IMG/VR virus record: IMGVR_UViG_3300048591_000147
Coordinates: 64,001-128,000 of that record
Strand: one strand, 5' to 3'
Length of the DNA stretch: 64,000 bases
From: a virus
Each line of letters starts with the position of its first letter. Position 1 is the first letter of the stretch. Positions 36,663-56,470 of this stretch are shown piece by piece. The position numbers and the translations under genes were made by a program. The notes under the pieces were generated by a model that saw only the letters and a list, made by a program, of their open reading frames with translations, was not told the origin of the DNA and searched no databases.

Positions 36663-36770
36663 GGGAGCGTGGCCAAGTGGTAAGGCAGCAGACTTTTTAA
36701 GTATTTTTACAGTCATTAAGAATACTTAGAAATCTGTTTATCGTGGGTTCGAATCCCACCGCTCCCACCA
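36663..36770 (+). tRNA. tRNA-Lys(UUU) with a ~31-nt insertion in the anticodon loop
   Basis: Perfect acceptor GGGAGCG/CGCTCCC, T arm GTGGG/CCCAC and encoded CCA. The anticodon stem (GCAGA...TCTG) encloses about 40 nt instead of 7; after CTTTT the sequence forms an AAGTATT / AATACTT hairpin. Removing about 31 nt would leave a UUU (Lys) loop. This would be an intron-like insertion near position 37/38 or an inactivated tRNA. Confidence 0.7.
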
Positions 36771-54265: not shown

Positions 54266-55003
54266 ATGAGTGAAATGATCGCCTTTCCATCCATCGAATC
54301 TTTGCGCCATGTTGTCAAAGGCACGGAAATTCGTTGCAAAATCAATAACTTGCAGTTGCCCAAGGTCGAGTACATTGGCACTGTCAAGCTCCATGGCAGC
54401 AATGCGTCTGTGCGATTCACTGCGGATGGCCAGATCATCCCACAATCTCGCAACCGTGTGCTGAGCGTTGGCGATGACAATTTCGGCTTTGCCGCATTCG
54501 TTGAAAAGAACAAACCACTTTTCAAGCATTTCCAAGACATCATTCCCGAAAATGAATTCACAGTTTACGGTGAGTGGTGTGGTGGTAGTGTTCAACCCAA
54601 GGTAGCATTGGAGCAATTGGAAAAGCATTTTGTCATCTTTTCCATCTTGATTGATGGTGTCATGTGCCCAGTGGTGCTGGGTGGTGATGTGTTTGTCTGG
54701 AATGAAGCTGGAATCTGGTGTGTCAGTCAAATTCCAACGTATAAGATCACAGTCGATTTCAGTCGTCCAGAAGATGTGGTTGATGAACTGACCGGTCTTA
54801 CCATCGCTGTAGAAAAGGAATGTCCATGGGGTAAATTCCGTGTGCAGAAGGATTTCAACAATACTTGCACCATTAACAATGGTAATATCACATGGGATAA
54901 TGATATTGCGGATTGCAAACTAAAGGATGAAATAGAATCAAAGATTATCCGATATGTCCAAGCAAATAACTTGCTTAGTAAGAGAATTACCATTTCTGTT
55001 TGA
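54266..55003 (+). CDS. RNA ligase, Rnl2 type, N-terminal part (split gene)
   Basis: 245 aa. Motif I KLHGSN (Lys41), motif III VYGEW (100-104), motif IIIa HFVIF (121-125), then VEKECPWGKF (182-191), where family members continue into motif IV. Here the reading frame runs into unrelated Asn-rich sequence and stops. Motifs IV and V are in the separate gene at 56021. A GIY-YIG gene in opposite orientation fills the gap. Rnl2-type enzymes seal nicks in duplex RNA. Confidence 0.85.
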   Translation: MSEMIAFPSIESLRHVVKGTEIRCKINNLQLPKVEYIGTVKLHGSNASVRFTADGQIIPQSRNRVLSVGDDNFGFAAFVEKNKPLFKHFQDIIPENEFTVYGEWCGGSVQPKVALEQLEKHFVIFSILIDGVMCPVVLGGDVFVWNEAGIWCVSQIPTYKITVDFSRPEDVVDELTGLTIAVEKECPWGKFRVQKDFNNTCTINNGNITWDNDIADCKLKDEIESKIIRYVQANNLLSKRITISV

Positions 55004-56006
55004 TAAAGGTATATTCATTATACTGAATTTCATCAGGATGGCGCAACAATCGTTTAATTGTCTTATCATTGGCTCCAAGTTTGGTAAGAAACTTCCCAAT
55101 GCTGATAATGGTAAACTCGCTATTATCAGCATTGTTTTTTACTATGTACTTGTTTGATGATAATGGAGCATATTCACCGCTGACGAATCTATCATCTAAT
55201 ACTGACATGCGACATACTTGATTGTTTATATTTCTAACAGTCATCATTTTCTGGCGCATATTACTCAATTTCTGTTTTGTTTCTTCTGAATGTTTCATGC
55301 CTTTATTATGATGCTTGAATATTTCACTAGAATACTCAGAAGTTTTGATTCTACATTTGTTACCACGCACATCAAATACAGTAACATATCCTTTGGAATG
55401 TCCTACAAGATTAGGATTACTTGCAAATTCAGAATTATTAACCAATATCTTGTTGCCGCTTGTGATATCTAACGCCACAACCTTGTTAGTATTACACGGT
55501 ATCATATATGAACTATCAAAGTCTTCACTCGTTATCTGCCGTATGATACCGTTATTGGTATCGAACACTTTGAATTTACCTTTGGTAATACCAACATACC
55601 CATCCGTAGACTCACCAGTTTTAACTATCTCCGGTTTCATGGTAGTTGTGTTCAACATCAATCGATTATTCTTGTTCCTACTATGCTGAAGACTGCATGA
55701 AAATCCTCTAGAAGTTTGTTTTGCTTTATTATAGAATGATGGGTTAGTATCTACATTGAATCTTTTATGTAAACGAATCTCCAAGTTCAATGCTTTAGTT
55801 TTTTCTGTAGTTGTGTATAGTACAATATATTTGTAGTGTGATCTATTGGTTAATTGATCTTTTACAAATTCTTTGTCCTTGGATGATGAAAAATATTTAA
55901 CTCCCAAGTCATTGACAGGTAACACATTTGATGGTATGCTTCTGTATCCATAGTAATGTTTACCAAGTAATTTATTGGTAATGCGATACACATAATAAAT
56001 TCTCAT
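54987..56006 (-). CDS. GIY-YIG homing endonuclease interrupting the ligase gene
   Basis: 339 aa. GIY-YIG domain (YYVYRITNKLLGKHYYGYRS, then Arg and Glu), a NUMOD3-like HSEETKQKLSNMRQKM (about 235-250) and repeated DNA-binding linkers (VFDTNNGIIRQITSEDF, VFDVRGNKCRIKTSEY). Antisense to the ligase; its stop overlaps the N-part's last codons. GGAGAG site. Confidence 0.85.
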   Translation of the reverse strand: MRIYYVYRITNKLLGKHYYGYRSIPSNVLPVNDLGVKYFSSSKDKEFVKDQLTNRSHYKYIVLYTTTEKTKALNLEIRLHKRFNVDTNPSFYNKAKQTSRGFSCSLQHSRNKNNRLMLNTTTMKPEIVKTGESTDGYVGITKGKFKVFDTNNGIIRQITSEDFDSSYMIPCNTNKVVALDITSGNKILVNNSEFASNPNLVGHSKGYVTVFDVRGNKCRIKTSEYSSEIFKHHNKGMKHSEETKQKLSNMRQKMMTVRNINNQVCRMSVLDDRFVSGEYAPLSSNKYIVKNNADNSEFTIISIGKFLTKLGANDKTIKRLLRHPDEIQYNEYTFIKQKW

Positions 56007-56020
56007 CTAGGACTCTCCAT

Positions 56021-56470
56021 ATGCAAATTTGTATAACGAAAATTGATGAAACTCCCGTCAACATACCTATTTATAGCTTTTCCAATTTTATCGGTGAAGG
56101 CATTGTGTGGGCACCAGTGGATAACAGCCTACCATTTGAAATGTGGTTCAAGACCAAGGGCTTGGAGCATAAGAAGGGAGCGAAGGCACCAAAGGTTGAA
56201 GTGGCCCCAGAAGTCATGCAGACGCAACGTGAGCTAGCAGAAAAGCTGTTGCCTGACTGGCGGTTGGAACAAGGTATCAGTGTCCTGCGCGAGCGTGGGT
56301 TGGATATTGAGCCCAAGAATATTGGTGTATATCTACAGTGGATCAGTGAAGACATTCTGAAAGAGGAACAGGATGTGATGGCTGCAAATGGTGTGGAGTG
56401 GAAAAAGATCAATCCTATCGTACTCCAACGTGCTCGCCAGCACATTCTGGAACTCTGTAAGAAGTTCTGA
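56021..56470 (+). CDS. RNA ligase, Rnl2 type, C-terminal part (split gene)
   Basis: 149 aa. After 20 novel residues it enters NFIGEGIVWAP (motif IV, Glu26) and FKTKG (motif V, 43-47), followed by the helical C-terminal domain. It lacks motif I, so it can work only together with the product of 54266. Start at ATG 56021; weak site GACTCTCC upstream. Confidence 0.8.
   Translation: MQICITKIDETPVNIPIYSFSNFIGEGIVWAPVDNSLPFEMWFKTKGLEHKKGAKAPKVEVAPEVMQTQRELAEKLLPDWRLEQGISVLRERGLDIEPKNIGVYLQWISEDILKEEQDVMAANGVEWKKINPIVLQRARQHILELCKKF
56068..56075 (-). promoter_or_regulatory. T4-late-type promoter within ligase C-part
   Basis: TATAAATA on the minus strand, 62 nt upstream of the GIY-YIG start and inside the coding region of 56021. 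Confidence 0.55.

Follow-up and report, generated by a model that had tools for sequence, protein, structure and literature searches.

Homing endonucleases that split a gene without an intron are known from a few phage genes, mainly nrdA of Aeromonas phage Aeh1, where the nrdA/mobE locus specifies a functional two-piece ribonucleotide reductase (PMC2988022). Similarly, gene 60 of phage T4 is split by mobA and gene 43 of Aeromonas phage 25 is split with a seg endonuclease, the two polypeptides having to re-assemble in each case (PMC2988022). Another such arrangement, in an Rnl2-like RNA ligase gene, was found at positions 54266-56470 of a 64,000-nucleotide stretch of viral DNA (the window), which comprises positions 64,001-128,000 of the 314,956-base IMG/VR record IMGVR_UViG_3300048591_000147 from a large bacterial virus. 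Two ligase genes, here termed A and B, flank a GIY-YIG endonuclease gene on the opposite strand. From sequence comparisons, we consider that the split gene probably encodes a stable two-subunit ligase, with A and B being made separately and assembling without splicing, and place the probability of this reading at roughly 0.8.

Gene A (54266-55003, 245 aa) and gene B (56021-56470, 149 aa) lie on the plus strand in the same frame, and the endonuclease open reading frame (ORF) overlaps the 3′ end of A by 17 bases. The locus comprises the following features:

54266-54838, plus strand: A core, the N-terminal part of an Rnl2-like RNA ligase (motifs I, III and IIIa) up to ECPWGKF; phrog_548 positions 2-198, Pfam RNA_ligase with E = 3.5e-11, and alignment with intact ligases
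54839-55003, plus strand: A tail, 54 added residues plus the stop codon, the first residues (RV) possibly being ligase-derived; coding-like codon usage, tail profile p ~0.02
54987-56006, minus strand: GIY-YIG homing endonuclease of 339 aa, encoded on the strand opposite the ligase, with a NUMOD3-like region; phrog_314 with E = 1.2e-10, NUMOD3 with E = 0.0022 (below the cut-off), relatives in 26 phage records
55097-55134, plus strand: terminator-like hairpin, its stem perfect over 13 bp and the pairs numbering 16 in total, followed by T6; fold of -21.7 kcal/mol
55912-55940, plus strand: candidate B promoter, TTGACA-17-TATGCT with TG ahead of the second hexamer; consensus match only
56009-56012, plus strand: candidate B ribosome-binding site, AGGA, 8 nt upstream of the ATG; sequence, anti-Shine-Dalgarno energy of -3.6
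56021-56089, plus strand: B head, 23 added residues preceding IGEGIVW; not in intact ligases, codon test not significant
56090-56470, plus strand: B core, the C-terminal ligase part (motifs IV and V and the C-terminal domain); phrog_548 positions 202-339 with E = 1.4e-14, 14 of 14 near-invariant residues kept

A and B are complementary halves of one ligase. Only three of the 341 positions of the phrog_548 profile lie between them, and the single intact gene of Stenotrophomonas phage RAS14 is the best relative of both. Alignment with uninterrupted ligases, which the first-pass annotation had proposed as a check, thus assigned both parts to one enzyme and recovered the motifs predicted for each: KLHGSN (I), GEW (III) and FVIF (IIIa) in A, with family similarity ending at VEKECPWGKF and the RV beyond it possibly also ligase-derived, and EGIVW (IV) and FKTKG (V) in B, where the novel residues at the start amount to the 23-residue head. 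The break point is the loop between motifs IIIa and IV, as ligase similarity stops at ECPWGKF(RV) and restarts at IGEGIVW in alignments with intact relatives. Neither the 54-residue tail nor the head is present in intact ligases. That the two genes lack no motif was likewise borne out: motifs I, III, IIIa, IV and V and the C-terminal domain are all there, as expected of phrog_548 ligases, and A and B together keep 34 of the 36 columns that are at least 95% conserved across 66 other ligases. One deviation is an Ile-to-Val change; the other is the Gly of the junction loop, which occurs in neither piece. B contains no stops, and its divergence lies little above that of A (rank 6 of 67), so that it is not evolving unusually fast relative to A.

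The curated cut-off of the NCBI Rnl2 equivalog TIGR02307 (197 bits) is not reached by A (26 bits). As the intact RAS14 relative (22 bits) also falls far under it, the enzyme belongs to an Rnl2-like phage group rather than to the T4 Rnl2 equivalog. A profile search matched 2hvq (E = 8e-13), and T4 Rnl2 structures were the first matches of AlphaFold models of the read-through protein. Going by the T4 Rnl2 fold, A would contribute the catalytic lysine along with the larger part of the sheet that binds the nucleotide, and B the motif IV and V strands and the C-terminal domain, so that neither alone should be a ligase.

A DNA search retrieved no near relatives of the window locus, and no sister phage carrying an empty, uninterrupted site was found. 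Viral contigs were scanned with the N-terminal halves and with the tail, and these scans and a profile search of all ORFs in the fetched loci identified further split ligases at two sites. Site 1, the same loop as in the window, is split in L292 (= L190), L302, L321, L346, L370, L373 and L376. The gap between the parts measures ~950-1050 nt in L292, L302, L321, L370, L373 and L376 and is filled by a sense GIY-YIG gene in L292, L302, L321 and L370. Site 2, located after motif V, is split in L194 (which recurs in several contigs), L276 and L284, and at all three loci the endonuclease is of HNH type and antisense. Coverage of phrog_548 illustrates the difference: the parts span positions 2-200 and 200-338 in L190, and 1-233 and 237-339 in L194. 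Two sites imply at least two independent splits, and the sequences would fit perhaps three.

All related split loci possess both an added A tail and an added B head. The tails of the other site-1 loci are mutually homologous; shuffles did not support a common origin of site-1 tails with those of site 2 or of Aeh1, and comparison of the tails of the other split ligases with cultured phages yielded no convincing match. In L346, which belongs to the L302 group, only 120 nt separate the A stop from the B start, no endonuclease is present, and the split is kept. Just one contig, fetched twice as L346 and L374, displays this gap, and an assembly deletion is possible in principle. Nonsynonymous and synonymous divergence (dN/dS) of the tails is 0.047/0.878 for L321/L346, 0.036/0.289 for L302/L346 and 0.028/0.335 for L346/L373, giving ratios of ~0.05-0.12. 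Amino acid change is thus far below synonymous change, which indicates strong purifying selection on a protein and not on intron RNA. The B cores of L302, L321, L346 and L373 likewise display low dN relative to dS, and the heads point in the same direction with few changes. As relatives keep two-piece ligases, one of them without an endonuclease, the enzyme very probably works as two re-assembling proteins. The two-subunit RNA ligase put forward in the first-pass annotation is accordingly favored by conservation of the halves, by the splits in relatives and by selection on the added segments of those relatives.

The gene between the halves is an antisense GIY-YIG gene, as originally annotated, and its position within a divided ligase gene, where no intron or intein was detected, is that expected of a gene in pieces. 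Assignment as a homing endonuclease comes from the match to phrog_314; the threshold of Pfam PF01541 itself was not reached. The motifs YVYRITN, YYGYRS, LEIRLH and FYNKAKQTS, containing the catalytic Tyr, Arg, Glu and Asn, were read by eye. The sense GIY-YIG genes of the other site-1 loci belong to a different family, phrog_10820 (tested on L190). Relatives of the window endonuclease were also encountered in other settings. L011, a short viral contig, carries two similar GIY-YIG genes of this type with other genes between them. At L012:1006-2947, a relative breaks a CCA-adding enzyme gene between AFTE and VYRLARF. There too the endonuclease interrupts a coding sequence, and at L012 the flanks are almost nil and leave no room for an intron; unlike in the window, it is in sense and almost no tail has been added. 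The first residues of the second part precede its ATG, and that gene may simply be broken.

Could the insert be removed by splicing? The first-pass annotation saw no obvious room for a group I intron core, a statement that held in part: the insert includes ~150 + 70 nt outside the endonuclease gene, so an intron was tested for rather than its absence assumed, and Rfam at E ≤ 10 detected none. Tests consisted of Rfam, a guide-sequence scan with shuffles, a pseudoknot scan, fold statistics and a protein loop test. The Rfam search found neither an intron nor a group I core (P3-P8 with P7) in the insert, a null that speaks to known intron types and not to an unknown kind of self-splicing element. 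The same search recovered the T4 nrdD intron (105 bits) and the T4 td intron (40 bits, E = 2e-8), both of which hold GIY-YIG genes. A helix and pseudoknot scan for a group I core was unselective. Among 81 in-frame splice pairs, one good candidate emerged, in which splicing at AAATT (54837)/TATAG (56076) would excise 54838-56076 as a group I intron with an antisense endonuclease gene and rejoin the ligase in frame. Its 10-nt guide-like stretch (54846-54855) pairs with both exon ends through 5 + 5 pairs, including a U-G at the 5′ site, a result expected by chance in about 1.2% of shuffles, and antisense endonuclease genes are known in nuclear rDNA group I introns (PMC9548176). However, the loop of the product would have nine residues, compared with 10 in 59 and 11 in 5 of 65 relatives, and would lack the invariant Gly. 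The insert folds no more stably than shuffles and contains a terminator-like hairpin, the codon usage of the A tail is coding-like, and tails of relatives split at the same site are under protein-level selection. Rfam at E ≤ 1 also revealed no intron in nine related split loci. We therefore give this group I intron a slim chance, and group I or II introns in general appear unlikely. For group II, a GUGYG-like start near 54841 was considered and rejected, given no suitable in-frame 3′ end (by eye) and no Rfam match.

Splicing might instead occur at the protein level, with the A tail and B head as the halves of a split intein that trans-splices the ligase. Known fractured genes with split inteins (cited in PMC3653736) have this order of parts: half gene with tail, endonuclease, half gene with head. 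The residues such chemistry uses are missing, though, as no Cys or Ser opens the A tail at the junction and no Asn followed by Cys, Ser or Thr closes the B head before IGEGIVW; the tails and heads of related loci are also without them. Together with a head of only 23 residues and no match to an intein model, this makes trans-splicing scarcely credible. A dying gene, recently broken by the endonuclease and yet to decay, its task being taken over by two other ligases of the phage, deserves somewhat more weight and is still improbable. In its favor are the lost loop Gly and the hairpin with T6 between the halves, and the genome does encode two more RNA ligases. A fresh break would not be expected to come with a coding-like tail, however, and B retains all 14 of its near-invariant residues and no stops. 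Related splits, moreover, have lasted while synonymous sites diverged widely and dN in A, tail and B stayed low, and the L346 split is kept without an endonuclease.

Several observations weigh against a stable two-subunit ligase. The exact locus is known from one metagenomic sequence, and the selection data come from its relatives only. Resemblance of the window tail to the other site-1 tails is weak, consisting of an NNT...NGNI.W pattern at the same offset (p ~0.02), and the window head is not recognizably related to other heads. Tail and head both have low pLDDT in the two AlphaFold read-through models, and the codon usage of the head is not coding-like, the test being non-significant with 23 codons only. 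Co-expression of B is left uncertain by the hairpin and the antisense gene, and the B promoter is a consensus match only, with such sites being no more numerous in the region than by chance. Finally, the two other RNA ligases of the genome could permit loss of the split one.

Codon usage of the A tail is gene-like, a level reached by none of 1408 stop-free shuffles; its origin was sought in phages, elsewhere in the same genome and in B, with no match. The hairpin, one of few such structures with T6 in the window, sits within the antisense endonuclease gene, 94 nt past the end of A, and would tend to stop the A transcript ahead of B. By ending the ligase transcript there, it may keep antisense transcription out of the endonuclease gene. 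B starts at an ATG of its own behind a plausible, ordinary ribosome-binding site, whose anti-Shine-Dalgarno energy is close to the median of window genes, and it may have its own promoter at 55912-55940.

The most probable account of the locus is as follows. A mobile GIY-YIG gene sits in an Rnl2-type RNA ligase gene, which has become two genes. A, with motifs I-IIIa, the catalytic lysine and the 54-residue tail, and B, with the 23-residue head, motifs IV and V and the C-terminal domain, would each be translated from its own start and assemble into one ligase without any splicing. Tail and head probably aid the meeting of the halves. The analysis shows the split, the conservation of both halves, that no intron or intein is detectable, and the recurrence and stable upkeep of such splits in other viruses; we infer that A and B are co-expressed, assemble and act as a ligase, and what the tail and head do. 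A tentative and rather doubtful extension is that tail and head constitute a small alpha/beta clasp domain, cut between two strands, which would re-pair non-covalently and rejoin the enzyme halves, be kept by selection without the endonuclease, and serve at both ligase sites. If true, invasion by homing endonucleases would have a stable outcome in genes that stay split and carry clasps, and such genes would correspond, at the level of protein, to introns and inteins.

The other two RNA ligases of this phage, located at G000:C1:139411-140223 and 276753-277352 (L128 and L127), comprise a 437-aa protein that carries an additional N-terminal region and a minimal one of 206 aa, so the split ligase need not be essential. 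With many tRNA genes in the phage, they fit a tRNA-repair setting. One strong tRNA match (window positions 36663-36767, plus strand, 61 bits) has ~33 extra anticodon-loop bases, which on folding lengthen the anticodon stem considerably (z = -6.9) and are possibly an intron or an anticodon-loop insertion. ARAGORN finds it only with introns allowed, as tRNA-Ser(aga), the anticodon assignment being uncertain. A sub-threshold group I intron match of 18.6 bits at G000:C1:16037-16188 (minus strand) is probably due to chance.

Compared with T4 RNA ligase 2 and the phage phrog_548 ligases, the window enzyme shares motifs and fold and differs in being two polypeptides instead of one. Among split genes, T4 gene 60 encodes a topoisomerase and gene 43 of phage 25 a DNA polymerase, the latter possibly split before its endonuclease arrived; here the enzyme is a ligase. 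The likeness to Aeh1 nrdA drawn in the first-pass annotation holds for the design, in which an intron-less endonuclease occupies the gene of a nucleic-acid enzyme and leaves two ORFs with an added tail (nrdA-a) and head (nrdA-b). It does not extend to the endonuclease, since mobE is an HNH enzyme in sense and the window gene encodes an antisense GIY-YIG enzyme, nor to the tails, that of Aeh1 not being recognizably related to those of split ligases. No split RNA ligase was found in the literature searched. So far as searched, the enzyme, the recurrence at two sites in one family, the antisense insertions and the selected tails persisting without an endonuclease thus appear to be new. A natural split RNA ligase offers a practical start for controllable ligases. 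Next to the few phage genes known to be split in this way, one enzyme family has two split sites here, used across several viral lineages by at least two endonuclease families and in both orientations, allowing direct study of how invasion by a selfish gene leads to a permanent two-subunit enzyme and of what the added ends contribute.
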